Below, one piece after another: positions 39,648-56,017 of a stretch of 64,000 nt of DNA (positions within the stretch are counted from its first letter, which is position 1; each line of letters opens with the position of its first letter). The stretch spans positions 3,460,866-3,524,865 of the forward strand of contig NZ_LT732529.1 in the NCBI RefSeq assembly GCF_900156865.1. The letters are read 5' to 3'. This DNA is from Litchfieldia sinesaloumensis (lineage in GTDB: Bacteria; Bacillota; Bacilli; Bacillales; Bacillaceae_L). The notes under the pieces are model-generated. The model did not search any database. It had not been told where the DNA came from and saw nothing but the letters and a program-made list of their open reading frames with translations. A program made the position numbers and the translations under genes.

Positions 39648-40106
39648 TTACTTCTTGCTTTTCTTTTTTAATTGCTCGGTTACTCCATCAATAAAGGTAA
39701 TTAACTCCGTTACCTCCTCAGGATTTCCGCGCGTTTTTTTGACAACATTTCTAACCTCTTTTTCCCATCGCTCCATTGCGGACTTAAGCTTTACAAATTC
39801 TTTGGAGTTTCTCCAAGTCATTCTCTCCTTCCACTCTTCCCAAAAATCCCCATCATGTTTTATTTCTTCCAATCTATTTAAACCACTGGTATTGATTGAA
39901 TAAATTTTTTTGTTCCCATGCACATCCTGCCTTATTAAATCTTGATCTTCTAATTCTTGAAGGGCTGGGTATACTGTACCAGCACTTGCAGAATATGCAC
40001 CATTTGAACGATCTTCTAATTCCTTCATAATTTGATAACCATGCATAGATTCTTGCTTTAACAGATGTAATATTGCTAACTGAACAAACCCTCTTTTTCT
40101 TCTCAT
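39648..40106 (-). CDS. PadR-family transcriptional regulator
   Basis: Winged HTH in residues 1-85 (FVQLAILHLLKQESMHGYQIMK, shown as LAILHLLKQESMHGYQ; SASAGTVYPALQELED) with a helical C-terminal dimerisation tail. 152 residues; AAGGAGG selects the ATG at 40106, not the open extension to 40160. First gene of the PadR-YfiB-YfiC operon, so it most likely represses the exporter until a substrate binds. A palindrome sits inside its promoter. Confidence 0.88.
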   Translation of the reverse strand: MRRKRGFVQLAILHLLKQESMHGYQIMKELEDRSNGAYSASAGTVYPALQELEDQDLIRQDVHGNKKIYSINTSGLNRLEEIKHDGDFWEEWKERMTWRNSKEFVKLKSAMERWEKEVRNVVKKTRGNPEEVTELITFIDGVTEQLKKKSKK

Positions 40107-40131
40107 TTTAGCCTCCTTATTTATATCGGTA

Positions 40132-40160
40132 ATTATAATCGATATATCGATATTCCTCAA
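40132..40160 (-). promoter_or_regulatory. PadR-operon promoter with embedded palindrome
   Basis: Leftward TTGAGG (40155-40160), 17-bp spacer, TATAAT (40132-40137). ATCGATATATCGAT (40138-40151), a perfect 14-bp palindrome, fills the spacer and is the likely PadR operator. Confidence 0.75.
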
Positions 40161-40278
40161 TCGTAATCAAATAAAAAGTGGGTTCTTGAATAATTGCACA
40201 CATTTTCCAAATAATACAACGGTGGGATAGCTTTCCTTGGATATTAAATATCGAAATGGTTAAGGGGGAATTAAATCT

Positions 40279-40746
40279 ATGTTATTTCGAAGGCATGTAG
40301 TCTTTAACATTCTAATTGTTTTGTTTCCATGGCTAACATTGCTATTAATGGGGAAGCGAGATGTAAAGCGTTATTCATTTGCTGGTATCTTTATTATCTT
40401 TTTTGAGATACTCAACCATATGTATGGTTACAAACAGAAGTGGTGGAAGTTTTACGATAGACGCAGGTCATTTTTCAAGGATGAACTTCCGTTTAGCATT
40501 GGCCCTTATATGCCTTTGTCTATGTGGCTACTTAAGCTTTCATTTGGAAATTTTAAAAAGTTCATCACTCTCAATGTAGTTTTTGATGGCATCTTTGCTT
40601 TTTTCATTATGGATGTTTTTAAAAAATTTAAGATTATTAAGCTTAATAAATTATCCCGTTTACAATTTTTCTTCTATATTCATTACAAAGCATATCTTCT
40701 ATATGCCTTCCAGTACGTATATGAAAAATACAAAAGATATATTTAA
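40279..40746 (+). CDS. Hypothetical membrane protein, 155 residues
   Basis: Not recognised with certainty. Three to four hydrophobic segments (about 8-25, 32-46, 78-92, 98-115) separated by basic, aromatic-rich loops (KQKWWKFYDRRRSFF) and a Lys/Tyr-rich C-terminus. AAGGGGGA ribosome site 8-9 nt before the ATG, and a terminator follows. The look is that of small Bacillus membrane proteins of unknown function. Confidence 0.7.
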   Translation: MLFRRHVVFNILIVLFPWLTLLLMGKRDVKRYSFAGIFIIFFEILNHMYGYKQKWWKFYDRRRSFFKDELPFSIGPYMPLSMWLLKLSFGNFKKFITLNVVFDGIFAFFIMDVFKKFKIIKLNKLSRLQFFFYIHYKAYLLYAFQYVYEKYKRYI

Positions 40747-40751
40747 AACAG

Positions 40752-40797
40752 AGAGGCTACTTGATCCATTCAATCCAAGTAGCTTTATGTATTTTTT
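40752..40797 (+). terminator. Terminator after the hypothetical membrane protein
   Basis: GCTACTTG / CAAGTAGC stem with a 12-nt loop, then TTTATGTATTTTTT. Confidence 0.65.
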
Positions 40798-41019
40798 AGT
40801 CAGTATTATACTTAAGCCGAAAAACATTCAATCTATAAAAGACGAAAATTTTCTGTTTTAGATTATGTATATGAATCAGTTCAAATAATAAAGCGGATAT
40901 TTAGGAGCATTCTGGATATATAGTTCGGAAATTGCTTCTATTTTTAAGAAAACGGGATATTATGTCGACTAGACATGGCTTTATGCGGTTATATCACCGA
41001 ATCTATTATTATATCACGT

Positions 41020-41049
41020 TTGCTACTATGCTAATATTGTTGATATGAT
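41020..41049 (+). promoter_or_regulatory. Predicted promoter of the NCS1 permease
   Basis: TTGCTA (41020-41025), 18-bp spacer, TATGAT (41044-41049). The stretch 40798-41019 upstream of it holds no visible gene. Confidence 0.45.
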
Positions 41050-41096
41050 TATATTCAGTTAATCGAACTGAAGAGTTTAGTTACCAATAAAACATA

Positions 41097-41116
41097 TTTG
41101 TGAATTTATTCACAAA
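41097..41116. promoter_or_regulatory. Perfect Rex-type palindrome
   Basis: TTTGTGAATTTATTCACAAA is a full match to TTGTGAA-N4-TTCACAA with one extra symmetric base pair. It lies in the leader, just before the ribosome site GAGGAG of the NCS1 permease, where a bound repressor would block elongation. Confidence 0.65.
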
Positions 41117-41138
41117 TAGTAAAAGAGGAGTTGATAGG

Positions 41139-42536
41139 ATGGGAACTGATATCCAAGCAGATCAAAATCACGATGCAATGAGTGATGATTATTCATTGGA
41201 TAGGGTACCACTTAACAAGAGAAATATGGGTTGGTTAAGTATAACAAATATCACTTTCGGAATTGCTACAGCTATTTTTTATTTTCAAATGGGAAGTGTA
41301 ATGGCACTTCAATTTGGTGCTATTAATGCCATCATTTCAGCTATTTATGCGATTATCGTAGCCGGTATTCTTGGTACATTCATTGCTTACTTATCTGCAA
41401 AGTCAGGTATGAATGTCAATTTACTATCAAGGGGTGGCGGATTCGGATATATTGGCGCATCATTAACCTCCATCATTTATGCCACAAATTTCATCATGTA
41501 TTGTGCACTTGAAGGTTTAATTCTAGTGGCAGCAGTCCACGAATTTATACCTACTATTCCTGAGTGGGCCTTAATTCTTTTCTTCGGAACCATTGTCATT
41601 CCATTAAACTGGTTTGGAATCAAACAATTGGATAAATTACAGAAATGGTCACTGCCTCTTTTTGGCATCTTTTTAATTGCCGCAATTATAATGGCTGCTA
41701 TGACACCTTCTGTATATAATGGGAGCTTCTGGTCCTATATGCCAGAGAATGTACAAGTTGGAGGTACTGCTCTCTTGTTATGTATTGGTATGCAGCACGG
41801 CATTATGGGATTGACCCCCCTACTTGCATCTGATTACGCACGGTTCTTAAAACCTAAAGATTTGAAAATTGGGGCATTTGCAATTGGGTTCGTCCCACAA
41901 ATTTTCTGTTTTGGCGTTATGGGCGGATTAGGCATTTGGTTCGGTGTCCGACTGGGTGAACCAAATCCTGGTGTGTACATTGTCACCCTTCTAGGCATGT
42001 GGGGAGCTTTATTTACAATGATTACCCAAGTTCGAATTAACGTTACGAACATATATAGTGGTTCGCTATCTCTTTCAAACTTCTTTGAAAACATGTTTCA
42101 CTTTAAACCTGGAAGACGTTTTTGGGTTATTGTAACAGGAGTATCTGCCATCATTCTAATGCTTACAGATATCGTAAATCATCTCGGAACAGTTTTAACA
42201 TTTCAAGGTGTCTTCTTATTGTCTTGGGCGGCAATTTTAGTTACGGATGCTGTCTTTGTTAAAAGAATATTAAAAATTGGCCCTGGGTATTATGAAGCTA
42301 GACAAAAGAATTTATTTAAATGGAATCCCGTAGGTGTAACCGCATTGTTAGTTTCAAGTGCCCTTGGGACTATCGCGGCACTCGGTTTTATGGGAACCTT
42401 TTTACAAAGTACAGCTGCATTCTTTGCAGCAATACTTGCATCTATCCTCACAATACTAGTAGCAATAGCTACCAAGGGAAAATATTATATAAAACAAGAA
42501 GCAGCGGACATTAAAAAAGAAGAATACGTTGCTTAA
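41139..42536 (+). CDS. NCS1-family purine/cytosine-type permease
   Basis: About 465 residues with twelve predicted helices; NCS1 signature region around ITFGIATAIFYFQMGSVMAL and QVRINVTNIYSGSLSLSNFF. GAGGAG with 8-nt spacing picks the ATG at 41139 rather than the upstream extension. Substrate (nucleobase, hydantoin or similar) unknown; it is a different branch from the codB product. The Rex-type site suggests redox-linked control. Confidence 0.83.
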   Translation: MGTDIQADQNHDAMSDDYSLDRVPLNKRNMGWLSITNITFGIATAIFYFQMGSVMALQFGAINAIISAIYAIIVAGILGTFIAYLSAKSGMNVNLLSRGGGFGYIGASLTSIIYATNFIMYCALEGLILVAAVHEFIPTIPEWALILFFGTIVIPLNWFGIKQLDKLQKWSLPLFGIFLIAAIIMAAMTPSVYNGSFWSYMPENVQVGGTALLLCIGMQHGIMGLTPLLASDYARFLKPKDLKIGAFAIGFVPQIFCFGVMGGLGIWFGVRLGEPNPGVYIVTLLGMWGALFTMITQVRINVTNIYSGSLSLSNFFENMFHFKPGRRFWVIVTGVSAIILMLTDIVNHLGTVLTFQGVFLLSWAAILVTDAVFVKRILKIGPGYYEARQKNLFKWNPVGVTALLVSSALGTIAALGFMGTFLQSTAAFFAAILASILTILVAIATKGKYYIKQEAADIKKEEYVA

Positions 42537-42541
42537 CGGCT

Positions 42542-42573
42542 TTTACCCTCTACTTTATTGTAGAGGGTTTTTA
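42542..42573. terminator. Bidirectional terminator between NCS1 permease and hprK
   Basis: CCCTCTAC (42546-42553) pairs with GTAGAGGG (42560-42567), followed by TTTTTA. Confidence 0.8.
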
Positions 42574-42577
42574 CTTA

Positions 42578-43522
42578 TTACTTATCCGAATTCGTAAATT
42601 CTTCGTCAATTCTGCTCATGAATTCCTCTGCAGCGTTATATCCTTGTTGCCTTAGATACCAGTTGTTTGCGGCAGCCTCAATTAGACCTGCTACATCACG
42701 TCCAGGCTGTAACTGTATTTCAATTGATGGGATCTTCACACCCATATATTCCATTGTGTTAATCTCCTGGTCTAGATCATTATACAAGCCGTCCTTTTCC
42801 CATTTCGTTAAATGAATATCTAAGGAAATACGTGTTTCATCTTGAAATGCTTTACGTCCATACATCCGAACCACATTTAATAGGCCAATGCTTCGTAAAG
42901 CCAAGAACTCCTTTGTCTTTTCGTCATGTGTTCCTAAAATGGTTTGTGGACTTAGTTTTTTTAAAACAACAATATCATCCGCTACAAGTCGATGGCCTCT
43001 GCGAATCAGTGTATGTGCTGTCTCACTTTTCCCCACACCAGAGTTCCCACGAATAAGGATTCCTATCCCCGACACATTCATGCAAACCCCATGCACCGCA
43101 ATTTGCTCAGCTAATTCCTTTATCAAAAAAGAATCTAATTTAACAATAAAATCGGAAGTTACCTCAGGTTCATTTGTAACTAACAACGGAATTCCTTGCT
43201 CTAAACAATGATGTGTTAAATAGGTGAGTCCTTCCTCACCACACGTCACAATGAAACAAGGTGGGCGATATTGAACAATATTCCCTATTCGGATTCTACG
43301 TTCTTCTTTTGTTAGCTTATGTAAATAGGTAATTTCCTTTTTTCCAAGGATTTGAACTCGTTCAGTTGGAAAAAAGTCAAAATGCCCTACGAACTCTAGA
43401 CCGGGCCTATGTACCCTAGATTGTGTAATATTATGATGTAACTGGTCTTCACCAGCCAATACCTTTAATGAGAACTTACGAACCAAGTCTCCTACCGTAA
43501 CCTGTTTCAACCGGCCACTCAC
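42578..43522 (-). CDS. hprK: HPr kinase/phosphorylase-like protein, divergent
   Basis: 314 residues with N-terminal HprK domain and C-terminal kinase domain. The active-site His (VHGVCMNV), P-loop GNSGVGKSE and VADD motif are intact. The second signature, EIRGLGIINV in B. subtilis, reads ALRSIGLLNV here (Glu to Ala, Gly to Ser), and PVRPGRN is QLQPGRD. HprK phosphorylates and dephosphorylates HPr-Ser46 for CcpA control. It is not linked to lgt as in the usual hprK-lgt operon, so this may be a second, specialised copy. Clear ATG; monocistronic. Confidence 0.82.
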   Translation of the reverse strand: MSGRLKQVTVGDLVRKFSLKVLAGEDQLHHNITQSRVHRPGLEFVGHFDFFPTERVQILGKKEITYLHKLTKEERRIRIGNIVQYRPPCFIVTCGEEGLTYLTHHCLEQGIPLLVTNEPEVTSDFIVKLDSFLIKELAEQIAVHGVCMNVSGIGILIRGNSGVGKSETAHTLIRRGHRLVADDIVVLKKLSPQTILGTHDEKTKEFLALRSIGLLNVVRMYGRKAFQDETRISLDIHLTKWEKDGLYNDLDQEINTMEYMGVKIPSIEIQLQPGRDVAGLIEAAANNWYLRQQGYNAAEEFMSRIDEEFTNSDK

Positions 43523-43604
43523 CGCCCCATTTTGCTTATTTACATGAAATTATACTTTATCAGCAGTGAAAACGTCATCTAGATGTTACTAAAATCTCTG
43601 AAAA

Positions 43605-44447
43605 CTAATTCTCTTTCCCCTTAGATACAGGGTTTTCGTGATAAGAAATCCAATCGCTATAACTTCCAGCATATAGTCTTACGTTCTTAAACCCCGCCAT
43701 TTTTAAAGCTATATAGTTGGGAGTGGCTGTTACACCTGAACCACAATATACGATAATTTCAGCCTCTTCGTTGAGGTCTGTGAATCTCTTTTTCTGTTCT
43801 TCATTATCTTTAAATGCACCTTGATCCAATCCCTCAAGCCAACACTTATTAAGGGCTCCTGGGATATGCCCCGCGATTCGGTCAATGGGTTCAACTTCTC
43901 CAAGATAGCGGCTTTCATCTCTAGAGTCTATCAATATCGATGATGGAGACTTCTGGGCGACTATTTGTTTTACTTCCTCATAAGAAGCAAGCATATCCTC
44001 TTGAATATCCTCTACAAACAGAGCCGGTTTTACTTCAGGTACTTCGCTCGAAGTTGGATAACCCGCTTCTACCCAGCCTTTAAAGCCTTCGTTAAGAACA
44101 TAAACCTTGTCATGACCTATGTATGTCAACAACCACCAAAAGCGAGAGGCAAATTGGCCCTCTCCTCCATCATAGGCAATGACTGTTGTTGTATTATCTA
44201 TGCCCACCTTCTCAATCTCACGCTTAAACTGCGCCATATCCGGAAGCGGATGTCTTCCCCCGTGCTTTTTAACTGGAGCAGAAAGTTGCTTTTCTAAATC
44301 AAAATAGAATGCCCTTGGGATATGACTCTCGGTATAGAGTCTTCCTCCTTCTTCAGGGTCTCCTAATGCAAATCGGCAATCGATTATTCTTACATTCTCG
44401 TTATGTAGTTGTTCAACTACCCATTCTTTATTTACAACAAAATTCAT
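43605..44447 (-). CDS. Two-domain rhodanese-family sulfurtransferase
   Basis: 280 residues with an inactive N-terminal rhodanese domain and a C-terminal domain holding the catalytic loop VYCGSGVTATPN (Cys about 237). The CG-S-GVT loop type is that of 3-mercaptopyruvate sulfurtransferases rather than thiosulfate ones (CRKGVT). Cytosolic. Excellent GGAGGG ribosome site. Monocistronic. Confidence 0.87.
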   Translation of the reverse strand: MNFVVNKEWVVEQLHNENVRIIDCRFALGDPEEGGRLYTESHIPRAFYFDLEKQLSAPVKKHGGRHPLPDMAQFKREIEKVGIDNTTTVIAYDGGEGQFASRFWWLLTYIGHDKVYVLNEGFKGWVEAGYPTSSEVPEVKPALFVEDIQEDMLASYEEVKQIVAQKSPSSILIDSRDESRYLGEVEPIDRIAGHIPGALNKCWLEGLDQGAFKDNEEQKKRFTDLNEEAEIIVYCGSGVTATPNYIALKMAGFKNVRLYAGSYSDWISYHENPVSKGKEN

Positions 44448-44517
44448 ATTACTCCCTCCTTTATTTTGTTTGGGAAAGACCTCAATAGATCTTTACTAAA
44501 AATAATCCGTACTTCTT

Positions 44518-45714
44518 CTAACCATTCAGCTTCTTGATAAATACAACCTTAAGGTAGTTGCCCTCCTTGAATGACTGTAAGGTTTGGAAATCCTCTGGTA
44601 AAGAAAATTCCTCTACCAATTTATATGTACTGTTACTTTCCTTAAATGCCGTATCAATAAATCCTTTGAATTTCTTCATGTCAAATGATGCACTATTTGT
44701 GGAAGCAACAATTACCCCATTTTTCTCCGTAATGGCAATCGCTTCTATCAATAGATTTTTGTAATCCTTTTCAGCACTAAATGTAAATTTTTTCGACCTT
44801 GCAAAACTAGGTGGGTCAAGAATCACCACATCAAATTTCAAATTCTTTTTACCCGCATATTTAAAATAACGAAAAACATCCTCAACAATGATGTCATGTG
44901 CTTCATAATCGATTCCATTTACACTAAATTGTTCAATGGTTTTCGGTAGACTACGATTAGCCAAATCAACACTTGTTGTCTTTGTCGCACCACCCAATGC
45001 CGCATAAACAGAAAATGCCCCTGTATATGAAAAGGTATTTAACACTGTTTTCCCTTTTGCATACTTATCACGTATGGTCTTTCTCACATTACGCTGGTCA
45101 AGAAAAACCCCTACCATTGCTTCTTCGTTAAAATAGACAGCAAAGTGAACCCCATTCTCTTTTACAATAATCGGAAATTGACCTCGCTCTCCTGCTACAA
45201 ACCCATCTTCTTCTATAAACTTTCCTTCCGCACGAAACCTCTTTTTCTGGTAAATAGCTTTGTACTCAACTATATTTTGAAGCGCTGCTAGAATATCTTC
45301 AAAAAATGTATAAATTCCTTTACTGTACCAATTTATTAAGTAATACCCATCAAAGTAATCAATGGTGAGACCTCCAATTCCGTCTCCTTCTCCATTAAAA
45401 ACCCGAAAGGCATTCGTATCCTTTTCAACAAAGAATGACCTTCTTTTATCTAATGCAGCTTTAATCTTCCTCTCAAAAAATCCCTGATCAATCTTCTCAT
45501 TCTTATTCTTGGTTAGGACCCAGCCATATCCTTTGTTTTGCTTGCCGTAATATCCTTTTGCTATGAATTGATCCTTTTCATCGACCAGGTTAATTAATAC
45601 GCCCTCTTCTATTGAATTTATCTGTTCCATCACTTGTTTTGTGATAAGGGGGTAACCGCCTTTATACTTATTAGCGTATTTTGAAGGTACCTTTATATGT
45701 AATTCTGTTTCCAT
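44518..45714 (-). CDS. rlmI: Class I rRNA (cytosine-C5) methyltransferase, RlmI/YwbD type
   Basis: About 398 residues: N-terminal PUA-like domain, central EEHEH domain and a C-terminal Rossmann methyltransferase with VLNTFSYTGAFSVYAALGGA (SAM site) and VVILDPPSFARSKK. Relatives methylate C1962 of 23S rRNA. Two ATGs three codons apart (45723, 45714); GGGATGAAG favours 45714. Confidence 0.85.
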   Translation of the reverse strand: METELHIKVPSKYANKYKGGYPLITKQVMEQINSIEEGVLINLVDEKDQFIAKGYYGKQNKGYGWVLTKNKNEKIDQGFFERKIKAALDKRRSFFVEKDTNAFRVFNGEGDGIGGLTIDYFDGYYLINWYSKGIYTFFEDILAALQNIVEYKAIYQKKRFRAEGKFIEEDGFVAGERGQFPIIVKENGVHFAVYFNEEAMVGVFLDQRNVRKTIRDKYAKGKTVLNTFSYTGAFSVYAALGGATKTTSVDLANRSLPKTIEQFSVNGIDYEAHDIIVEDVFRYFKYAGKKNLKFDVVILDPPSFARSKKFTFSAEKDYKNLLIEAIAITEKNGVIVASTNSASFDMKKFKGFIDTAFKESNSTYKLVEEFSLPEDFQTLQSFKEGNYLKVVFIKKLNG

Positions 45715-45839
45715 TATCTTCATCCCATTCTATGGTCTTCTTTTCACCTATCATACAATTATCTTCACTAAAATCAAAGACGTCTTAGTGATTTGCTCAA
45801 GTTCACGTCCATAGAACCTCGAGGCCTTCCGCTGGAAAA

Positions 45840-45895
45840 TTAAATAGGGCCATCCTTCGCTACCTTCAAGTAACGAGGTACTGACCCTACTTCTA
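45840..45895 (-). terminator. Structured terminator of the parMR operon
   Basis: TAGGGTCA / TGGCCCTA outer stem (45845-45852 with 45882-45889) around an inner CCTCG/CGAAGG stem, then TATTTAATTTT leftward. Confidence 0.65.
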
Positions 45896-45903
45896 ATTAG
45901 TGA

Positions 45904-46500
45904 TTACTTATTCATGGCAGAAAGAAAATCCCCAAGAAGACTGTCTAAATCAGTGTCTTCCGTGGCCTCTTCCTCATTAGGTACTTCTTGTTTTGCCGTT
46001 TCCCACTTAAAATTATCTAAATCATCATCAAAGCTGTCAACCTCACTCGTCGCAGCAACTTCATTGTGTGATACTTCGTCCTCAAGTGATGGTTGAACTT
46101 TATGTTCCTCTACTGATATTTCCTCTTGAAGGTATAAGGCTTCATCCAAATCAACCGACTTACTATTTAACGACGCAAGAAGTGCAGTTGCACGTACTGG
46201 ATCCGATAGAAGCTGATGTATGATACTTCCTAGTAACGCCTCTGAATGTTCATGCTTTAACCAATTGCGTTGTGATTTACTTAATTTGTGAGGAAGTGGC
46301 ACAGTAATAACTTCTCGCTCTCTTGAATAGGACTGGCCGACACCCTGCATGACATACTCCGCTATCTTACTTGAAAAGTTTCTACGCTCTGTTTCTTTTA
46401 ACTTTTGGAGGTGTTTTAATAAATGATCAGGTGTATCGGATGGTACACGGAATGAAATGGCTTGGCCCCTTTTGACCTCAGTTGAGGTAGACTTTCTCAT
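45904..46500 (-). CDS. parR: ParR-like DNA-binding partition adaptor
   Basis: 198 residues. The N-terminal half (about 10-60) has the ribbon-helix-helix pattern (GQAISFRVP followed by two helices), then a helical dimer region; the C-terminal half is a long acidic linker ending in a short conserved-looking helix LDSLLGDFLSAMNK, the likely ParM contact. It is 14 bp downstream of the ParM gene, the standard order in actin-type partition operons. It should bind the iteron array upstream of parM and tether DNA to the filament tip. AAGGTG ribosome site. Confidence 0.78.
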   Translation of the reverse strand: MRKSTSTEVKRGQAISFRVPSDTPDHLLKHLQKLKETERRNFSSKIAEYVMQGVGQSYSREREVITVPLPHKLSKSQRNWLKHEHSEALLGSIIHQLLSDPVRATALLASLNSKSVDLDEALYLQEEISVEEHKVQPSLEDEVSHNEVAATSEVDSFDDDLDNFKWETAKQEVPNEEEATEDTDLDSLLGDFLSAMNK

Positions 46501-46514
46501 AAGATCACCTTATC

Positions 46515-47687
46515 TCATTTTTTAACTGGCTCTTGCGGTACTTTTTGCTTCTCCGTTTTTCTTACGAAATCTGTTATGAGCTTATAATAAGCATTGGCCA
46601 TCATCCAAATACTCTCTTTTTCATCCTCAAAGAATTCGATATTGTAGCCATCAAGGTTATTGTTCAAGGTCTTCATATAGTCCTTTAACACATTTGATCC
46701 ACCACCAACAAAATAGCAGATTTCAGTTTGCGAGTTTTTTAGCCATACATTACGTAGCAAGCGATATTGTTTTTTTGCTAAATCCAAGAGAATTCGATCT
46801 GTAATATCATGTACACTTGTCCGACTTCCTTTTACCATAATATGATTGCGATTATTTTTTCTTGTAATAATATCAACCACATCACGGCGACTGTCTAACT
46901 CGACTCCATGTTTAGACCGAATTTCTTCTCTGATTGCTTCTAATGATTCAGATACTCCAAGGTTAAATCCTTGCGCCTTATCATCATCGACAGTTCGATT
47001 ACGAATCACTGCAATATCAGTTGATAATCCGCCAATATCCTGAATTAGGATTCGTTTATCGATTAAATCTTTATTAATTACTTTCAAGTCATTATCCATA
47101 ACAAGATTAATATAAGCAGCAAATCCTTCTGGATATATTTTGACCTCATTAAATTTAATATTCACCTTTAATCCTTGATATCTTGGAGTCACGAGAAACT
47201 CTACCTGGTGAACAGAACCTGTAAGTTTTGATCGATATCCTGCATCCTTACCTTCCTTTACTTCACGAAGTGGCAGACCGGTTCCAAGTGTATAATTTGC
47301 ATCAATTATATTTTTTTGACGAGGGAAAGTTGAAGAATTTTCCTCCCTAACCGCATCCAATGCCAATGTTGCAAATAACATAATTAATGTCTGGTCCTCT
47401 TCTGATTTACTACTTCCCGGGTCCAACTCTGAAGCACTACCACTCTTTGTTGCTAAATGACCGACACGATAAATAACGTTATTATCCTTTAGGGCAGGGG
47501 AGTGGACCCTGATGTGAATTCCTTCAAGTGGATCCTTGCTATTTAACTCTTCTATTCCAATGACCGGACGGTCCTCAATATCTCTTGCAATAATATTAGG
47601 TATGTTTAATTCGTGCTCTAGCTCTCCAAAGATCGCCTTAATAGAGTCATTTCCAACATCAACTGCTGCAATTCTAGACTTAGACAT
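46515..47687 (-). CDS. parM: ParM/StbA-family actin-like ATPase
   Basis: 390 residues with the actin fold signatures: phosphate-1 AAVDVGNDSIKA (residues 7-18), phosphate-2 IQDIGGLSTDIAV (about 222-234) and adenosine motif FVGGGSNVLK (about 327-336). Closest to Gram-positive plasmid ParM/Alp proteins. It polymerises with ATP to push replicated DNA apart. Upstream lies an iteron array, downstream a ParR-like gene, so the cassette is complete. All flanking genes are chromosomal housekeeping genes (rRNA methyltransferase, proBA). Confidence 0.88.
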   Translation of the reverse strand: MSKSRIAAVDVGNDSIKAIFGELEHELNIPNIIARDIEDRPVIGIEELNSKDPLEGIHIRVHSPALKDNNVIYRVGHLATKSGSASELDPGSSKSEEDQTLIMLFATLALDAVREENSSTFPRQKNIIDANYTLGTGLPLREVKEGKDAGYRSKLTGSVHQVEFLVTPRYQGLKVNIKFNEVKIYPEGFAAYINLVMDNDLKVINKDLIDKRILIQDIGGLSTDIAVIRNRTVDDDKAQGFNLGVSESLEAIREEIRSKHGVELDSRRDVVDIITRKNNRNHIMVKGSRTSVHDITDRILLDLAKKQYRLLRNVWLKNSQTEICYFVGGGSNVLKDYMKTLNNNLDGYNIEFFEDEKESIWMMANAYYKLITDFVRKTEKQKVPQEPVKK

Positions 47688-47797
47688 TCAAACATCATCC
47701 CTTCAACTTAGTAGATTATTTTTTTCTGTATCTCTTTATTTAAAGGGTAGTAGAGATTACTAGATTCCACAATGACTACTAGTAAAAAGAAATATAA

Positions 47798-47974
47798 TTG
47801 TAAACCTGTAAACACCTTGTAAACATGTCGTTATTTGTAAACATTTCTGTATACAATGATTACAAAGGTGTACACATGTCGTCACGCCGGGTTGTATACT
47901 ACTTTGTAAACAAGTAAACGGTATTGTATACAATCTGTTTACACTTTATATACACGTAAACAAAAATGTATACA
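47798..47974. repeat. parC-like iteron array (TGTAWACA repeats)
   Basis: About 13 copies of an 8-bp near-palindrome TGTAWACA (variants TGTAAACA, TGTATACA, TGTACACA, TGTTTACA) in 177 bp directly upstream of parM. Positions include 47798, 47807, 47817, 47835, 47848, 47869, 47892, 47904, 47924, 47936, 47955 and 47967. Spacing is 9-20 bp, several near one helical turn. Position and form are those of a ParR-bound centromere and autoregulatory operator. Confidence 0.88.
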
Positions 47975-47977
47975 GCA

Positions 47978-48020
47978 AAAAAAGAGAGGGTATTTCCAAA
48001 TTCATAGAAATACCCTCTAG
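47978..48020 (-). terminator. Terminator of proBA
   Basis: AGAGGGTATTTC (47985-47996) pairs with GAAATACCCTCT (48007-48018), then TTTTTTT leftward. Confidence 0.88.
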
Positions 48021-48036
48021 CTTTTATCCTCTATTA

Positions 48037-49281
48037 TTACTTTATTTGCCCATTTCCTCTAATCGTATATTTGGTAGAAGTTAATGCTTGTAACCCCATT
48101 GGTCCACGAGCATGGAGCTTTTGTGTGCTTATTCCAATTTCAGCACCAAACCCAAATTCAAAACCATCTGTGAAGCGAGTTGATGCATTATGATAGACTG
48201 CTGCAGCATCGACCTCTGTTAGAAATTGCTCAACATTTTCAGTTGATTGAGAAACGATTGCTTCTGAATGTTTTGTTCCATATTGGTTAATGTGGGCAAT
48301 CGCCTCGCCTACATCTTCGACTACTTTTATGGCTACCTCTAGACCTAAGAATTCCCTTTCCCAGTCTTCCTTCGTTGCAGGAACTATATCATTTCCTATC
48401 TGTTGGACTCTATCATCTCCGTGTATACGGACGCCTTCAGCCTGTAGAGTCGTGATTAACTCACCTAGATATGTGGTCGCCCAATCCCTTTGAACGAGTA
48501 CATTTTCGATTGCATTACACACAGAAGGCCGTTGGGTTTTGGCATTTACCGTAATCTCGAATGCCATCTTCGCATCAGCCGTTTCATCTATATATACATG
48601 ACAATTCCCTGCACCTGTTTCCAGTACTGGAACCGTAGAATTTTGAACAACTGTTTGAATTAACTTTGCCCCACCTCGTGGAATTAGCACATCCAAATAC
48701 TCGTTTAACTTAAACATTTCAGATGCCGTTTCACGACTCGTATCTTCTAGTAACTGTACAGACTCAATTGGTAAACTGCTTAATTCAAGAGCATGCTGAA
48801 TGACTTTTACGATTGCTTTATTCGAATGAATGGCGGTTGAACTACCACGTAATAGCACTGCATTACCAGTTTTTAAACACAGACTTGACGCATCTACGGT
48901 TACATTTGGCCTCGCTTCATAAATCATGCCGACAACACCAAGAGGTACCCGAATCTGTGTAATCTGAAGGCCATTCGGACGCTCCCACTCCTCTACCACT
49001 TGGCCGATCGGATCATTAAGTTTTGTTAACTGAATCAGAGCATCTGCTATATCATGAATCCTCTGTTCGTCTAATTTTAATCGGTCTAGTAGGGATTCGC
49101 TCATACCATTTTCTTTTCCAGCCTGTAAGTCCTTTTCATTTTCTTCCATAATAAAAGCTTGTTCCTTGATAAGTTGTTCAGAAATAATTGAGAGTGCATG
49201 ATTTTTTTGTTCCGTTGTCGCTTTTGCTAAGATTTGTGCAGCCTTTTTTGCCATTTTTGCTTTTTGAATTAACTCACTCAT
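48037..49281 (-). CDS. proA: Gamma-glutamyl phosphate reductase
   Basis: 414 residues, aldehyde-dehydrogenase fold; catalytic Cys in [12 protein letters not shown] (about 254). Reduces gamma-glutamyl phosphate to glutamate semialdehyde in proline synthesis. Its ATG overlaps the proB stop by 8 bp, so the two are translationally coupled. Confidence 0.94.
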
Positions 49282-50401
49282 ACTCCATTCTCCTCTCTTT
49301 TTGACTTACCCAGTTATCTCTATGAATCACAACTCGTTGGTCACTGTTTACTTTAACCATCGCCTTTGTGCTTGATAGTCCTTTAATTTCTATTAATTGA
49401 TCAGAAGAAAAATTCACTTTTCCTTTCCCGATAATTTCTCCCTTTAGGTTTACAACCTCTACTACGTCATTGATTTTAAAATTCCCGATTATATTTGTAA
49501 CCCCTGCTGGCAGGAGACTTTTACCTTGTCGTAATATAGCCGCAACGGCTCCTTGGTCGATCTCAATTTTTCCATTTGGAATTGAATGTAATGCGAGCCA
49601 CTGTTTTGATGCTTTCATTCCTGGATGTGAGGAATTACCAATATAAGTTCCATCTCCCTTTCCAGCAAGAATATCAACCAATTTATCGTCTCCTGTTCCA
49701 GACCCTATAAATACTTTAACCCCCAAGCCCAATGCAGTCCTTGCCGCCTCTATTTTCGACTTCATTCCGCCAGTCCCTACCTTAGAGCCTGGTTCCGTAG
49801 CACCACTAACTAATTCTTCATGTATTTTATCAAGGAAGTTATACCTTTTTGCATCTGGATGTGTTCGTGGATTTTGATCATAGATTCCATTGACATCCGT
49901 AAGAATTACTAAAAAGTCAGCATGGACCAGACCACTTACTAAAGCAGATAACATGTCATTATCTCCGAAGTTTAATTCTTCTAGTGATACAGAATCATTT
50001 TCATTAATAATGGGAACCACATTTCGTTTTAGTAACTCAGAAAGAGTTGCATGCGCATTGTTGTATTGATCCTTGTAGAGAAAGTTCTGCCTCGTTAACA
50101 GTAATTGTGCGACAACGACCCCATGTTTTTTAAACTCCTCCGTATATCCTCTTAATAAAAGCCCTTGGCCAACTGCCGCCGCAGCTTGTTTGCCCGCTAC
50201 CGTTTTAGGGCGGGACGGATAACCAAGGTCCATAAAGCCTGCTGCAACAGCTCCAGACGAAATGAGAACGACCTCATGTCCTTTTTCCTTTAACAGTGCT
50301 ATTGCGTTAACATGCTCACGTAATTTCTCAATACTGAGGCCACCATTTTGATTCGTTAAAGAGCTACTGCCAATTTTGACAACAATTCGTTTCTTCTTCA
50401 C
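49274..50401 (-). CDS. proB: Glutamate 5-kinase
   Basis: About 375 residues: amino-acid kinase domain (KIGSSSLT start; [12 protein letters not shown]) plus a C-terminal PUA domain (from about 280). First step of proline synthesis. The frame extends to 50443 but GGGGTG precedes the GTG at 50401. Controlled by an upstream T-box. Confidence 0.92.
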
Positions 50402-50454
50402 TTCATTCACCCCGGATTGATAATCAACTACAATTTCAAACAAATCCTCTGTAT

Positions 50455-50697
50455 ATAAAAAAAGGCCCTTCCATCCCTATAAAAAGGACGAAAAGACCAT
50501 ATAACCTTTCGTGGTACCACCTTTATTGATACTGGATGCTCCAGTACCCACTCAATAGCCTTTAACGCGGGCAACGGCTAGGTTTTGCCTAGCAGTTCAA
50601 GGGACAGGTTCAATAGCATTGCAGGCGCGTAAAATCTTTCAGCCCATGAATTTTACTCTCTTTTACCTGAGGACTATCTACTGGTTCCCTATCATTA
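50455..50697 (-). promoter_or_regulatory. T-box leader of proBA (probably tRNA-Pro)
   Basis: Contains the T-box antiterminator core AAGGTGGTACCACG (about 50508-50524, minus strand), a Stem I region, and a terminator stem GGTCTTTTCGTCC / GGATGGAAGGGCC with T-run (50455-50500). The base of Stem I (AGGGA / TCCCT) brings GAACCTG into the specifier-loop position; CCU (50606-50608) would read proline. Confidence 0.9.
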
Positions 50698-50744
50698 CTT
50701 CATATTTATAATAAGTGTCACTTGCCGTTTATTAGATTAGGAAT

Positions 50745-50773
50745 ATTATGAATCAATTTTATATCGATGTCAA
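50745..50773 (-). promoter_or_regulatory. Promoter of proBA
   Basis: TTGACA (50768-50773), 17-bp spacer, CATAAT (50745-50750), leading into the T-box. Confidence 0.75.
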
Positions 50774-50867
50774 TGGATGCTTTTAAATCAAAATTACCAT
50801 TTATGAGCGGTATTATTTTTTTCTAAAATCCTAATAATAAACTGCAGTGCCTTGTCCATCATATTAG

Positions 50868-50903
50868 TTGACATAGGTATTAACATCTATATAATAATTA
50901 GTA
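50868..50903 (+). promoter_or_regulatory. ahpC promoter with PerR-type box
   Basis: TTGACA (50868-50873), 16-bp spacer, TATAAT (50890-50895). ATATAATAATTAGTA (50889-50903) matches the PerR box TTATAATNATTATAA at about 12 of 15 positions and covers the -10. A second weaker version follows at about 50912-50925. Confidence 0.65.
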
Positions 50904-50983
50904 TAAACAAGTAATAATTATAGATTTTTTAGTCAATAATGCTAATAATCTATTTTTAAATATTTTATTTGGAGGAATTTACT

Positions 50984-51553
50984 ATGTCACTTATTGGAAA
51001 AGAAGTACAACCATTCACAGCACATGCTTATCATGCAGGTTCAGGCGATTTTATTGAGGTTTCTGAACAAAACTTAAAAGGTCAATGGAGTATTTTCTGC
51101 TTTTACCCAGCTGACTTTACTTTCGTTTGCCCTACTGAACTTGAGGATCTTCAAAATCAATATGCAACATTAAAAGAATTAGGTGTTGAAGTATATTCTG
51201 TATCTACTGATACTCACTTCACTCATAAGGCATGGCATGATCATTCTGATGCTATCAGCAAAATTGAATATATTATGATTGGTGACCCTTCTCAAAGAAT
51301 TACACGTATCTTTGACGTTTTAGACGAAGAAGCTGGTCTTGCAGATCGTGGAACTTTCATCATTGATCCAGACGGTGTTGTACAAGCACTTGAAATCAAT
51401 GCAGGCGGAATTGGCCGTGACGCAAGCACTCTTGTTAACAAGATTAAAGCTGCACAATACGTTCGTAACAATCCAGGTGAAGTATGCCCGGCTAAATGGG
51501 AAGAAGGCGGAGAAACACTTAAGCCAAGCCTAGACCTAGTCGGCAAAATTTAA
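50984..51553 (+). CDS. ahpC: Alkyl hydroperoxide reductase subunit C (peroxiredoxin)
   Basis: 189 residues. Peroxidatic Cys in [10 protein letters not shown] (about 47) and resolving Cys in GEVCPAKW (about 167), typical 2-Cys peroxiredoxin. Reduces H2O2 and organic peroxides with AhpF. GGAGG selects the ATG at 50984; the frame extends to a TTG at 50969 within the leader. Followed by ahpF after 12 bp. Confidence 0.95.
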
Positions 51554-51565
51554 GGGGTGCTATAA

Positions 51566-53146
51566 ATGGTATTAGATGCTGATATTAAGCAACAATTAAC
51601 TCAATATCTTCAACTATTAGAAAATGATGTACTGCTCAAAGTCAGCGCTGGATCCGATGATGTATCAAAGGACATGGTTTCACTCGTTAATGAATTGAAA
51701 ACAATGTCACCGAAAATTAAAGTTGAGGATTCTCAATTAGAACGAACACCTAGCTTTAGTGTCAATCGAATTGGGGAAGATTCAGGTGTAACATTTGCTG
51801 GTATTCCCCTTGGACACGAATTTACTTCCTTTGTGTTAGCTCTTCTACAAGTTAGTGGACGAGCTCCAAAGGTTGAGCAGAAGCTAATAGATCAAATTAA
51901 AGACATTAAAGGTGAATATCACTTCGAAACTTATGTTAGCTTAAGTTGCCATAACTGTCCTGATGTTGTACAAGCACTTAACTTAATGAGCGTTCTCAAT
52001 CCTGGTATTACACATACTATGATTGATGGTGCTGCATTTAAAGAAGAAGTTGAGAGCAAAGATATCATGGCTGTTCCTACCGTATTTTTAAATGGAGAGA
52101 ATTTCGGCAACGGTCGTATGACCCTTGAAGAAATCCTCGCTAAAGTTGGTAGTGCTCCTGATGCTTCAGAGTTTGCTGATAAAGATCCATTTGATGTTCT
52201 TGTGGTTGGCGGCGGACCTGCTGGAGCAAGTGCAGCAGTCTATGCAGCTCGTAAAGGCATTCGTACTGGTATTGTTGCTGAACGCTTTGGCGGTCAGATT
52301 ATGGATACCCTTGGCATTGAAAACTTTATCAGTGTTAAGTACACAGAAGGCCCTAAGCTAGCAGCTAGTCTTGAAGAGCATGTAAAAGAGTACGATGTAG
52401 ATGTTATGAACTTACAGCGTGCCAAACGCATTGAAAAGAAAGACTATATTGAGGTTGAACTGGAGAACGGTGCTACTCTAAAAAGTAAAACCCTCATCCT
52501 TTCAACAGGTGCACGTTGGCGTAATGTTGGCGTACCTGGTGAAGTAGAGTTCAAAAACAAAGGTGTAGCCTACTGTCCACATTGTGACGGTCCATTGTTT
52601 GCAGGTAAGGACGTAGCCGTTATTGGTGGCGGAAACTCAGGTGTAGAAGCTGCCATTGACCTAGCAGGTATTGTAAAGCATGTAACAGTTCTTGAATTTA
52701 ATTCTGAACTAAAGGCTGATACAGTGTTACAAGATCGTCTCTTCAGTCTTCCAAACGTTACTGTTATTAAGAATGCCCAGACAAAAGAGATTACTGGTAC
52801 TGACAAAGTAAATGGAATTACGTATACTGACCGTGAATCTGGAAAAGAACATCATGTTGAACTTCAAGGTGTATTTGTCCAAATTGGTCTCGTACCAAAC
52901 ACAGATTGGCTTGATGGAACAATTGAACGCAACAGAATGGGTGAGATTGTTGTTGATAACCATGGTGCAACAAGTGTTCCTGGTGTATTTGCCGCTGGAG
53001 ATTGTACAAATAGTCCATATAAGCAAATCATCATTTCAATGGGATCAGGTGCAACTGCATCACTAAGTGCATTTGACTATATCATCCGAAATAATTGGGA
53101 TACAAATACAGATGAGTCTGGTAAGAAAACACTAGTTCATCAATAA
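51566..53146 (+). CDS. ahpF: Alkyl hydroperoxide reductase subunit F
   Basis: 526-residue flavoprotein. N-terminal tandem thioredoxin-like domain with CHNC (about 131-134) and a thioredoxin-reductase-like domain with FAD site [19 protein letters not shown], redox CPHC (about 338-341) and C-terminal GVFAAGDCT. Passes electrons from NADH to AhpC. Slightly longer than B. subtilis AhpF (509) by a C-terminal tail. Ends in a terminator. Confidence 0.94.
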
Positions 53147-53151
53147 TAATT

Positions 53152-53196
53152 CAAAGCAACTTTACTACCTAACCAGGTGTAAAGTTGCTTTTTTCG
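53152..53196 (+). terminator. Terminator after ahpCF
   Basis: AAGCAACTTTAC (53154-53165) pairs with GTAAAGTTGCTT (53179-53190), then TTTT. Confidence 0.88.
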
Positions 53197-53290
53197 TATT
53201 ATTAGTAAAAGACACTTTTACTAATATTTTCTATTTAATTACCTTCTTCACCATGCAAATAGGTAAAATGTAAAATTTTGTAAATAATAC

Positions 53291-53320
53291 TTGTCAAAGG
53301 TTTTTCTAGCTCTTTACAAT
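53291..53320 (+). promoter_or_regulatory. Promoter of the formate/nitrite transporter
   Basis: TTGTCA (53291-53296), 18-bp spacer, TACAAT (53315-53320). AT-rich symmetric sequence precedes it, but no clean Rex or FNR box. Confidence 0.55.
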
Positions 53321-53362
53321 AGAAGTAGTGACAACCTACATAAGAAAATGGAGGCTAGGGCC

Positions 53363-54205
53363 TTGGATTATATTAAACCTAATCAGTTAATCGAAGATGT
53401 TGCACAAACTGGTGCTTATAAAACCACCTTGAACATAAGTGATATTTTAATAAAAGGGATCTTATCTGGTGCCTTTTTGGGTTTTGCTACAACACTAGCC
53501 TTTACAGCTACAATTGAAACAAACTTGAGTATTGTAGGAGCTATAGTCTTTCCTGTCGGGTTTGTGCTTGTATTGTTATTAAGCCTCGAGCTGGTGACTG
53601 GCAACTTTGCGATGCTACCACTTGCAAGGATGAGAGGTCTTACTTCTAGTAAAAGGATGGTTTACAACTTTTTTTGGGCCTTTCTTGGAAATCTTCTAGG
53701 AAGCATTTTGTATGGAATATTATTTTATATCGTAGCAACAAAATTGGGACATATCACTCAAGGGGCGATGATTGACAAGATTATTACTGTAGCTGAAGGG
53801 AAAACTCTTGCATATAAAAGCCTTGGTGGAGATGGAATGATTGTTGTTATTACCAAAGCAATATTATGTAATTGGATGGTTACTTTAGGAGCTTTTATGG
53901 CATTTATTTCGAGTTCTACAATTGGAAAAATTGCTGCTATGTGGCTTCCTGTGTTTTTATTTTTTGCCCAAGGTTTTGAGCACGCCGTCGTAAATATGTT
54001 TGTCATTCCAACAGCTATATTTATGGGTGCAGATCTTACATTAGGTGATTGGTGGCTGTGGAATCAAATTCCTGTTACTATCGGAAACTTTATTGGTGGA
54101 TTTATTTTTACTGCGTTGGCACTTCATTTAGTTAATAAGAAAAAGGTAACAAAAACCGAAGCCATAATACTTAACTACCCCCATTTGAAGGATAAAGAAA
54201 TATAA
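53363..54205 (+). CDS. Formate/nitrite transporter family channel (YwcJ-like)
   Basis: About 280 residues with six helices of the FNT fold; FNT-typical segments KGILSGAFLGFATTLA, LELVTGNFAMLPLARM, CNWMVTLGAFMAF and GFEHAVVNMFVIP. Carries formate, nitrite or related monovalent anions. The TTG at 53363 with GGAGG 8 nt upstream is preferred over an earlier frame start that overlaps the promoter. A weak hairpin follows at 54218-54242. Confidence 0.87.
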   Translation: MDYIKPNQLIEDVAQTGAYKTTLNISDILIKGILSGAFLGFATTLAFTATIETNLSIVGAIVFPVGFVLVLLLSLELVTGNFAMLPLARMRGLTSSKRMVYNFFWAFLGNLLGSILYGILFYIVATKLGHITQGAMIDKIITVAEGKTLAYKSLGGDGMIVVITKAILCNWMVTLGAFMAFISSSTIGKIAAMWLPVFLFFAQGFEHAVVNMFVIPTAIFMGADLTLGDWWLWNQIPVTIGNFIGGFIFTALALHLVNKKKVTKTEAIILNYPHLKDKEI

Positions 54206-54265
54206 ATATATACAAATGGCCCTCCTATTAACTAGGGGGGCTGACTATCTTATTATCTATCAATA

Positions 54266-55729
54266 TTAATGATCGTGATTATTACCATCTTCAGGCAAAA
54301 TGGTTGGAACTTGTGACTCAGTGCCAGGTTCTACTAATAAGAACTGCCCCATCATGCCTTGATCCTCATGAAGCAATAAATGGCAGTGATACATAAGTGG
54401 AAAATTAGGGTCGGCATAGTCCCCAAACTCAACAACAATTCTCACCTTTGAACCATTGGGAACAAACACGGTATCCTTCCTTCCCTTCTCGTAATCAGAG
54501 GGAGCCTTTCCATTTATGTCCAATACTCGAAAAGCTGCATTATGAATATGGAAATTATGAGACCATCCAAAATTATTTATTTCCCATATTTCTGTTGCAC
54601 CCGCTGGAACAACCTCATCAATTCGGTACATGTCCATTAATTTATCATTAATCTTATTCTCCATTGTGAGTTTAAATTGACGGACTCTTGCATCTTCTGG
54701 TACCTCAATTGGTGGGACAGTTGATAGCTTTCCGTCAATTGGAGTCGAATCTGTTAACTCTGAAGCTGCAACAATTTTCAACAATTCAAATTCCCCATTG
54801 TCTAAACCTGCATTCCCCTTATAGCTGTGAAGAATCGTTTCATCGCCAGGCTCAAATTCAACTACAATTTCTGCACGCTCACCTGGACTTAGCATTATAC
54901 GATCTAATGTTACTGGCTCGTTTAGAAGCCCTGCGTCACTTCCTACAAGTTGAAACGACCTGTCATCTGAAAAACCGAAATTATAGGCCCTTGCGTTTGA
55001 GCCATTGAGAAGTCGAAAGCGAACTTGACTTGCTGTCACCTTCAGAAAAGGGTCATATGTTCCATTCACAAGTATTTCATCGCCCAATGTACCAAATATA
55101 CCCTCATCATCCATTGTTAACTGCCCATCATCTGTAAACAATTTGTCTTGTATAATGAGAGGAATATCATCTACCCCGTAGGTTGAAGGCAGTTTCTTTG
55201 AATCCTCATCGTCAATAATGAACATTCCAGCCAGTCCACTATAAACATGCTCCGCAGTTTTACCGTGTAAGTGTGGATGATACCAAGTAGTAGCGGACGG
55301 CTGGTCAATTGTCCAATGCGGCGTCCAGGTTTCCCCTGCCTCAATCATTTGGTGTGGACCTCCATCCATCACCGCAGGTAATAACATACCGTGCCAATGA
55401 AGGGTCGATGTTTCATTCATATTATTAGTAACTTGAAAAGAAACTTTGTCACCTCGTGAGGCTCTTATCGTTGGGCCAAGGTAGGATCCGTTGATTCCCC
55501 GAGTGTCTGCAAGCTTACCAGGTAGTAGTTCTGTTGTTCCTTCTTGCAAGGTTAACATAAAGTTTTTGGTACCATCTGGTTCAATTGTAGGGTCCACAAG
55601 TGGTGGAATCCTTAGTGGTTGTTCAAACTCTAATTCCCCCACATTTGTCATAATTTCTTCTTTGCCACAAGCTGTTAATAGTACAAGTAACATAAGTGAT
55701 ACTGTAAAAAATCTATAATTTAATTTCAA
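54266..55729 (-). CDS. Multicopper oxidase lipoprotein
   Basis: 487 residues. Signal peptide with lipobox LLTAC (Cys21), then three cupredoxin domains with all copper motifs: HWHG, HPHLHG, HNFHIH and HCHLLLHEDQGMM. The axial type-1 ligand is the final Met. Surface-anchored oxidase of phenols, Cu(I) or Mn(II) in relatives; substrate undefined. A His/Asp-rich C-terminus (GNNHDH) may add metal binding. Monocistronic. Confidence 0.88.
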   Translation of the reverse strand: MKLNYRFFTVSLMLLVLLTACGKEEIMTNVGELEFEQPLRIPPLVDPTIEPDGTKNFMLTLQEGTTELLPGKLADTRGINGSYLGPTIRASRGDKVSFQVTNNMNETSTLHWHGMLLPAVMDGGPHQMIEAGETWTPHWTIDQPSATTWYHPHLHGKTAEHVYSGLAGMFIIDDEDSKKLPSTYGVDDIPLIIQDKLFTDDGQLTMDDEGIFGTLGDEILVNGTYDPFLKVTASQVRFRLLNGSNARAYNFGFSDDRSFQLVGSDAGLLNEPVTLDRIMLSPGERAEIVVEFEPGDETILHSYKGNAGLDNGEFELLKIVAASELTDSTPIDGKLSTVPPIEVPEDARVRQFKLTMENKINDKLMDMYRIDEVVPAGATEIWEINNFGWSHNFHIHNAAFRVLDINGKAPSDYEKGRKDTVFVPNGSKVRIVVEFGDYADPNFPLMYHCHLLLHEDQGMMGQFLLVEPGTESQVPTILPEDGNNHDH

Positions 55730-55960
55730 TTTCTCCCTCTACTTTCTTTTCTTTCAACTGGTGTTTCGAAATTTTATCTTATTCTACTATTTTACCATAG
55801 TCTTTTTTAGTTCCCGAAATTGTCATTAAATCGACACACATTTATGAGAACAACTCAAAACCTTCACGATTCATTAAATCTCTAATCAGGTGGTACTTCT
55901 TTCTAATGAAACCAACTAGTATATCTAGTAACCTCAAAGATTCTGAAAAAATTAAAGAAA
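55730..55960. other. Intergenic region upstream of the S-box promoter
   Basis: AT-rich, no convincing gene or structure seen. Confidence 0.3.
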
Positions 55961-55965
55961 TACAC

Positions 55966-55994
55966 TTGACTTATTATTAAGATAAAGGTAATAT
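55966..55994 (+). promoter_or_regulatory. Promoter of the second S-box operon
   Basis: TTGACT (55966-55971), 17-bp spacer, TAATAT (55989-55994). Confidence 0.75.
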
Positions 55995-56017
55995 CAGAAT
56001 ATTAATTTTAATAATTA

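Follow-up and report, generated by a model that had tools for sequence, protein, structure and literature searches.

What is an actin-type partition cassette doing in a bacterial chromosome, when such systems are generally regarded as plasmid business? The question is raised by a stretch of 64,000 nucleotides from Litchfieldia sinesaloumensis (contig NZ_LT732529.1, positions 3,460,866 to 3,524,865; the whole stretch is called the window here, and coordinates of features within it are counted from its first letter), in which a cluster of TGTAWACA repeats (parC) is followed by genes for a ParM-like ATPase and a ParR-like protein. The segregation of bacterial chromosomes is mostly attributed to ParABS, to SMC, and to effects driven by replication or entropy. 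The reading preferred here, with a probability of about 0.6, is that the cassette amounts to a full type II (actin-type) partition locus of the chromosome and acts on the chromosome's own origin-proximal region. The analysis establishes the three-part anatomy of the cassette, its spread and conservation, its chromosomal location, its distance from the origin and orientation, and its coexistence with ParABS.

Read along the minus strand, the locus consists of a terminator closing proA, a 177-bp TGTAWACA cluster, parM, a gap of 14 bp, parR, and a hairpin (Table 1). Where 6.15 strand-wise matches to TGTAWACA would be expected in the window, 17 occur, and 11 of these are concentrated in the 177 bp, so that the cluster exceeds chance. 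It holds 8 exact octamers and 12 GTAWAC hexamer cores; the initial annotation had announced about 13 TGTAWACA iterons, and while the cluster stands, the count does not, since 12 is reached only with the hexamer core. The ParM-like ATPase gene proposed at the same time is borne out by its open reading frame, by actin-like Pfam domains and by conserved motifs. For the ParR-like gene said to begin 14 bp past the parM stop, gene and spacing hold good and the ribbon-helix-helix fold found no match; likewise, a hairpin does follow parR where a terminator was claimed, but it is absent from the list of the terminator scan, which instead gives the one at 48018-47985.

The repeats accompany the cassette in other genomes. 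When 8-mers were counted upstream of parM (up to 400 bp, 80 regions), TGTAAACA ranked first and was present in 79 regions, and TGTATACA ranked seventh (71 of 80); most of the others were shifted copies. The TGTAWACA octamer occurs at a median of 6 per upstream region compared with a mean of 0.05 in base-shuffled regions, which preserve single-base content only. Across 150 loci with both genes, taken from two collections that partly share genomes, at least one octamer lies upstream of parM in 149, at least two in 143, and at least three in 128; the corresponding figures for the 141 distinct parM sequences are 140, 134, and 120. The mean in these 150 loci is 0.007 inside the genes and 0.027 in the 400 bp downstream. 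Spacings between iteron cores are mainly 8, 11-12, and 20-21 bp, the longer ones being near one or two helical turns. Judged from these patterns the TGTAWACA motif is part of the cassette, and the operon is preceded by an iterated parC that is a putative centromere. Extra iteron clusters were seen downstream of parR in genome G025 (L174:2747-2808) and, in genome G310, about 0.9 kb further upstream of the cassette (L175:2063-2187).

ParM has Pfam matches above the cut-off to Alp7A_like_C (1.7e-37), MreB-like_C (2e-11), and ALP_N (7.7e-10), and the motifs DVGN, QDIGGLSTD, and GGG, which we take to be nucleotide-site motifs, are invariant across 42 aligned sequences. The AlphaFold model is weak (mean predicted local distance difference test score, pLDDT, 56.8), probably because the alignment is narrow (42 close sequences); the top solved structures that Foldseek returned for this low-confidence model, which serve as support only, are BtParM, Alp7A, pSK41 ParM, pCBH ParM, Clostridium botulinum ParMs, Dh-cParM1, and CorM. 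Domains and motifs place the protein among the actin-superfamily ParM ATPases, and a Pfam scan found no ParA or ParB match for either ParM or ParR. ParM is also, on substitution ratios, under stronger constraint than the flanking genes: in five own-genus pairs the ratio of nonsynonymous to synonymous substitution rates (dN/dS) is 0.013-0.026 for parM, 0.047-0.055 for proA, 0.045-0.070 for parR, and 0.050-0.091 for the methyltransferase-like gene, ratios that are rough because dS is saturated (above 1). The proportion of nonsynonymous differences (pN) in own-genus pairs goes in the same direction, at about 0.03 for parM against 0.08-0.09 for proA.

The second gene is identified by position and homology. 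The window ParR has no Pfam match, and its family has no PDB match by sequence or, with a predicted model, by fold. The gene is called ParR because it always comes after parM (80 of 80 named loci, each with both genes present) and because a profile of 46 ParRs matches the gene that follows parM in all 12 of the plasmid and distant counterparts tested, at 99.6 to 21.6 bits. These 12 come from six plasmids and six distant loci, and the E-values apply to the set of 12; a seventh plasmid stretch (L178) ended ahead of any gene downstream of parM. The profile matches indicate that the ParR family is homologous to the genes downstream of plasmid parMs. Over the 150 loci the median gap between parM and parR is 13 bp. 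In the predicted model, helices at residues 25-37 and 42-61 lie where the helices of a ribbon-helix-helix protein could be, in a compatible order, and ParR may fold in this way. In an alignment of 46 members F192, M196, and N197 are invariant in the C-terminal segment, the end that would bind ParM.

The cassette keeps its place relative to the origin. In 68 of 68 genomes in which parM and dnaA share a contig, parM is found on one and the same side of dnaA, on the opposite strand, at 35-313 kb (median 91 kb); these genomes span 20 families and 30 genera and are related, so they are not 68 independent events. They were drawn from 71 hand-picked genomes with a strong parM (among them G000, G002, G022, G025, and G051), mostly of few contigs or with parM on a long contig; in most cases the choice preceded knowledge of the dnaA position, and a few genomes of few contigs were left out. 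Three (G318, G133, and G171) were dropped because their parM and dnaA do not share a contig, and the wrap-around distances (20 of 68; 288 kb in G331) assume circular contigs. Among named records, L043, L079, L090, and L115 have the same arrangement at 69 to 217 kb, and in L057 parM is about 37 kb from dnaA if its contig is the dnaA-bearing one.

As a control, proA was located in genomes outside the genus: 47 were searched, 43 gave a match, and 23 had all three genes on one main contig. In these 23, with genome sizes rounded to 0.1 Mb, the median distance from dnaA is 0.26 of the chromosome for proA and 0.016 for parM, the latter reaching 6.5% at most; a single control gene is a thin yardstick, and proA was taken as the best match (51-70% identical outside G282), so that paralogues are possible. 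In G282 alone proA is also near dnaA, about 9 kb from parM; the next nearest lies at 10.6%. The neighbourhood of the cassette changes, while its side, strand, and distance to the origin persist.

This persistence bears on a passive explanation, in which a once-domesticated module was inherited near oriC and kept there for expression or dosage, with no role in moving the chromosome. Closeness to oriC could be ancestral because the ParM tree described below fits a single acquisition, and some loci do share neighbour families, the commonest being found in 17 of 80 named loci. Most neighbours, however, differ between genera, yet the side, strand, and distance of parM persist; moreover proA, the neighbour in the own genus, stands at least 10% of the chromosome away from dnaA in 22 of the 23 other genomes. 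The passive explanation is therefore considered quite unlikely.

The distribution of ParM separates the chromosomal cassette from plasmids. The contig of the window comprises 4,551,291 of the 4,556,449 bases of the assembly and also carries dnaA, which rules out a plasmid or chromid and upholds the chromosomal setting first proposed. ParM matches were found in 221 of 397 genomes of the order (E <= 1e-3), of which 201 are strong (E below 1e-195, counted by hand) and 20 weak. In a sample of the class, 52 of 398 genomes match at E <= 1e-30; 24 of these matches have 77-100% identity and 28 have 44% or less, with none between. Of 72,556 plasmid records 79 match ParM, all below 60% identity and the best-ranked at 43.5%, and 50,697 phage records yielded two weak matches. 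A tree of 68 ParMs places the 54 chromosomal sequences in a single group (Shimodaira-Hasegawa-like approximate likelihood ratio test, SH-aLRT, 100) apart from 7 plasmid ParMs; its root and distant rows are unsure because of long branches (L173, L177, and others). The genomes hold a chromosome-encoded ParM with a neighbouring ParR. Carriage by a plasmid contig or mobile element was rejected, the contig holding dnaA and ParABS and no plasmid record reaching 60% identity, as was a single-strain island; both readings fail because of the 4.55-Mb contig with dnaA and the presence of the cassette in many species. The original proposal, that a plasmid module has been domesticated or that the locus segregates or positions the chromosome, is supported, movement of the chromosome being the presumed part of it. 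A link to sporulation through Spo0A was also tried and set aside: Spo0A_C is nearly universal (390 of 397 genomes), which makes a correlation uninformative, and two of the seven genomes lacking it (G133 and G248) carry a strong parM.

Other ParM-like genes were met in the same searches. The gene at L173:2575-3669 (G507:C1) is a different, chromosomal-looking one without a recognized ParR neighbour or a nearby TGTAWACA; genes of this type, 30-34% identical to the query, occur in four genomes of one genus. That it might be a cParM of the Bacillus cereus type was rejected, since on reading it is unlike one, with neither ParR nor TGTAWACA beside it. A same-genus genome has a second, distant ParM-like gene (G003:C23:2753-3787; 28% identity), and a genus member without a strong match has only a distant one (G008:C38; L037).

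The cassette coexists with the standard chromosomal system. All 25 genomes tested, 17 with the clade and 8 without it, have exact parS sites, which rules out replacement of ParABS by the cassette. In the own genome four parS sites lie at 3546855-3567803, between parM and dnaA, and the parS region contains ParA- and ParB-type genes; the cassette thus adjoins this region rather than replacing its system. ParABS (Soj/Spo0J/parS) is likewise a chromosomal partition locus close to the origin of the same genome; it differs in using a Walker-type ATPase and ParB, proteins unrelated to ParM and ParR, and a different site.

A mechanism for action on the origin region can be proposed by analogy with plasmid ParMRC, where ParR on iterons forms a partition complex and ParM filaments insert at this complex and push or space sister copies. 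ParR dimers would bind the TGTAWACA repeats of parC beside the operon and would also repress parMR. The parC-ParR complex would capture and stabilize the ends of ParM filaments, probably through the conserved C-terminal segment of ParR, and filament growth would pair and separate, or position, the two newly replicated copies of the region left of oriC. The cassette would work in parallel with ParABS/SMC. A wider proposal, tentative and put at somewhat below even odds, is that many Bacilli move or position their origins by two machines, ParABS/SMC and an actin-driven one with its own centromere left of oriC, and that at least one conjugative-type element parasitizes the second, bringing a ParM and parC repeats that match the host's and borrowing the ParR. 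The second machine would then be the first ParMRC with a demonstrated action on a chromosome.

That element bears a ParM 78% identical to the query (L206:9907-11143; also L203-L205, L207, and L208). It is known from two contigs of a viral collection, 86 and 116 kb long and identical over the 15.7 kb compared, and looks conjugative-type rather than plain phage because the neighbours of its parM include a TcpC-type conjugation protein, an AAA_10 ATPase, and a replication-relaxation protein. Three copies of TGTATACA lie within 100 bp upstream of its parM, and an apparent terminator, by reading, follows the gene directly. No ParR match was found in 29 kb of the longer contig with a profile that does find ParR in two control loci, and when the viral collection was scanned separately with the ParR alignment, no relative turned up. 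The element may use the ParR of its host, a suggestion that rests on one element and on the 29 kb of the 116-kb contig that were read.

Such an element speaks for a reading in which the cassette serves extrachromosomal DNA, either stabilizing resident plasmids or mobile elements with matching iterons or causing incompatibility against them: the element looks as if it borrows a host ParR, and two of the seven plasmid relatives read have three upstream TGTAWACA (the other five have none or one). Elements of this kind nevertheless seem to be rare, since 2.9 million viral contigs searched by pattern scans yielded two contigs of this one element; plasmid records stay below the 60% identity noted above, and the conserved chromosomal parC and the distance to the origin would be left unexplained. 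Service to extrachromosomal DNA is on these grounds highly improbable.

A further explanation is that ParM and ParR have been repurposed as a cytoskeleton that shapes the cell or positions something else, with iterons that merely autoregulate the operon. There is a precedent in FcmBC, a chromosomal pair derived from ParM and ParR in filamentous cyanobacteria, in which FcmB is required for rod shape and arose from a plasmid partition system (PMC12645912, as far as the accessible text goes). CorM, a cyanobacterial filament whose structure was determined with CorR present (PDB 9rmi, from its accessible record), is likewise among the matches of the ParM model, and the unusual constraint on ParM is in keeping with such a role. 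Autoregulation alone, however, needs no multi-copy iteron array kept across families, nor does it demand a fixed side and distance from oriC. FcmBC resembles the cassette as a chromosomal ParM-derived actin with a ParR-like partner, but it acts in cell shape and is nearest to AlfA, and the accessible part of the paper mentions no centromere and describes no centromere array for it (PMC12645912). A cytoskeletal role is regarded as unlikely.

Several observations weigh against the preferred reading of a partition locus acting on the origin region. The evidence is computational, and binding, polymerization, force, and biological role are inferred. About half of the sampled order is without a strong ParM match, so the cassette is not indispensable there, and ParABS is present with or without it. 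Closeness to the origin may be an inherited position. In L065 (Bacillus sp. EB01, HG964497.1) parM lies about 0.76 Mb from dnaA and on the other side, if the shotgun scaffold is circular; it is the only clear exception to the origin-left position, for which an inversion or a misassembly is possible. The ribbon-helix-helix fold of ParR is unconfirmed by the Pfam, PDB-sequence, and fold searches, and the saturation of dS detracts from the comparison of constraint. As to parC, L162 is without an exact upstream TGTAWACA and six further loci have just one. A stricter test, for pairs of exact TGTAWACA octamers within 30 bp, was applied to the same numbers of genomes as the parS search (17 with the clade and 8 without). 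A pair lies upstream of parM in 10 of the 17, and in G025 the pair sits downstream of parR instead; at the cassettes of the other six (G067, G073, G122, G136, G359, and G364) it is missing. Pairs also occur away from the cassette in 8 of the 17, at one to two places each, and in 6 of the 8 genomes without the clade; a reversed-pattern control gives 0-2 per genome. Distant clusters of three TGTATACA octamers at G231:C1:2796748-2796781 and G310:C1:3591441-3591485 are possibly further ParR sites or chance. Since pairs are missing at some cassettes and present elsewhere, these data do not prove that each chromosome has just one centromere.

Compared with plasmid ParMRC/Alp7A-type systems (Alp7A, AlfA, BtParM, and pSK41 ParM), the cassette shares an ALP_N/Alp7A_like_C ATPase, a small downstream partner of a family homologous to the genes beside plasmid parMs, and upstream repeats; it differs in being chromosomal and near oriC, with a ParM in its own group at less than 60% identity. 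Plasmid ParRs are also shorter, at 134-151 amino acids in six plasmids against 174-210 in the selected set here, and their C-terminal end differs.

Chromosomal ParMs as such are already known. Dh-cParM1 of Desulfitobacterium and Cb-cParM of Clostridium have been characterized, and a Bacillus tropicus pair, Bt-cParM, is listed as conserved among several species of Bacillus (J Biol Chem 2025, PMC12270681; here and below, the accessible text). That paper states that ParCMR has so far not been implicated in chromosome segregation, and in its main text as accessible oriC appears once, within a reference title. Its cParMR systems are similar in being chromosome-encoded, highly conserved ParM/ParR pairs; the cassette differs from them as presented there in forming a single large clade that shares one conserved iteron motif and sits on a fixed side of oriC at a fixed distance. 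No report of an origin-proximal ParM family was found among open-licence PMC papers, preprints not being included. The origin-proximal family is therefore put forward as unreported, a claim of novelty that is limited because Bt-cParM, known by description, possibly belongs to the same clade. With a family in about half of the sampled order that has a centromere candidate and keeps to one side of oriC at a fixed distance, a role in chromosome segregation becomes directly testable in bacteria that are not known to be pathogens, and relatives with and without the cassette provide a built-in comparison.

Table 1. Features of the partition cassette and of its surroundings in the window
Feature	Position	Strand	Remarks
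parC-like centromere candidate	47798..47974	.	TGTAWACA octamers and degenerate GTAWAC copies
TGTAWACA octamer starts in the parC candidate	47807, 47818, 47836, 47848, 47905, 47925, 47936, 47967		
parM-like actin ATPase gene	46515..47687	-	390 amino acids; chromosomal clade; Pfam ALP_N and Alp7A_like_C
parR-like gene	45904..46500	-	198 amino acids; conserved N-terminal half, acidic variable linker, conserved C-terminal end
Conserved ParR C-terminal segment	45907..45945	-	Consensus DDLLGDFLxxMNK; candidate ParM-binding peptide
Intrinsic terminator between proA and parC	47985..48018	-	Terminator scan (2 found vs 1.6 in shuffles)
Hairpin after parR, possible terminator	45842..45892	-	z -2.84 for the folded stretch
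proA	48037..49281	-	Upstream neighbour in own genus; context, outside the system
Methyltransferase-like open reading frame	44518..45723	-	Downstream neighbour in own genus; context; named by reading
T-box leader before proBA	50481-50704	-	92.5 bits, E 8.2e-21; just below the Rfam gathering score of 93

The surroundings of the cassette agree with the initial annotation, which had described proA/proB with a T-box leader on one flank and a methyltransferase on the other, the latter named by reading; by reading alone, no rep, integrase, or transposase is apparent among the open reading frames of 40000-56000. As to conserved synteny between proBA and the methyltransferase, the arrangement is confined to the own genus, being found within 5-kb flanks in 6 of 80 named loci, and was rejected as a conserved setting, other genera having different neighbours. 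Where 102 neighbours taken from 27 loci were scanned with Pfam, the 25 commonest of 140 families include transporters, dehydrogenases, and similar proteins, and there is no integrase or transposase among those 25. In PHROGs, two neighbour members match a tail-protein family, and some match endolysin families.

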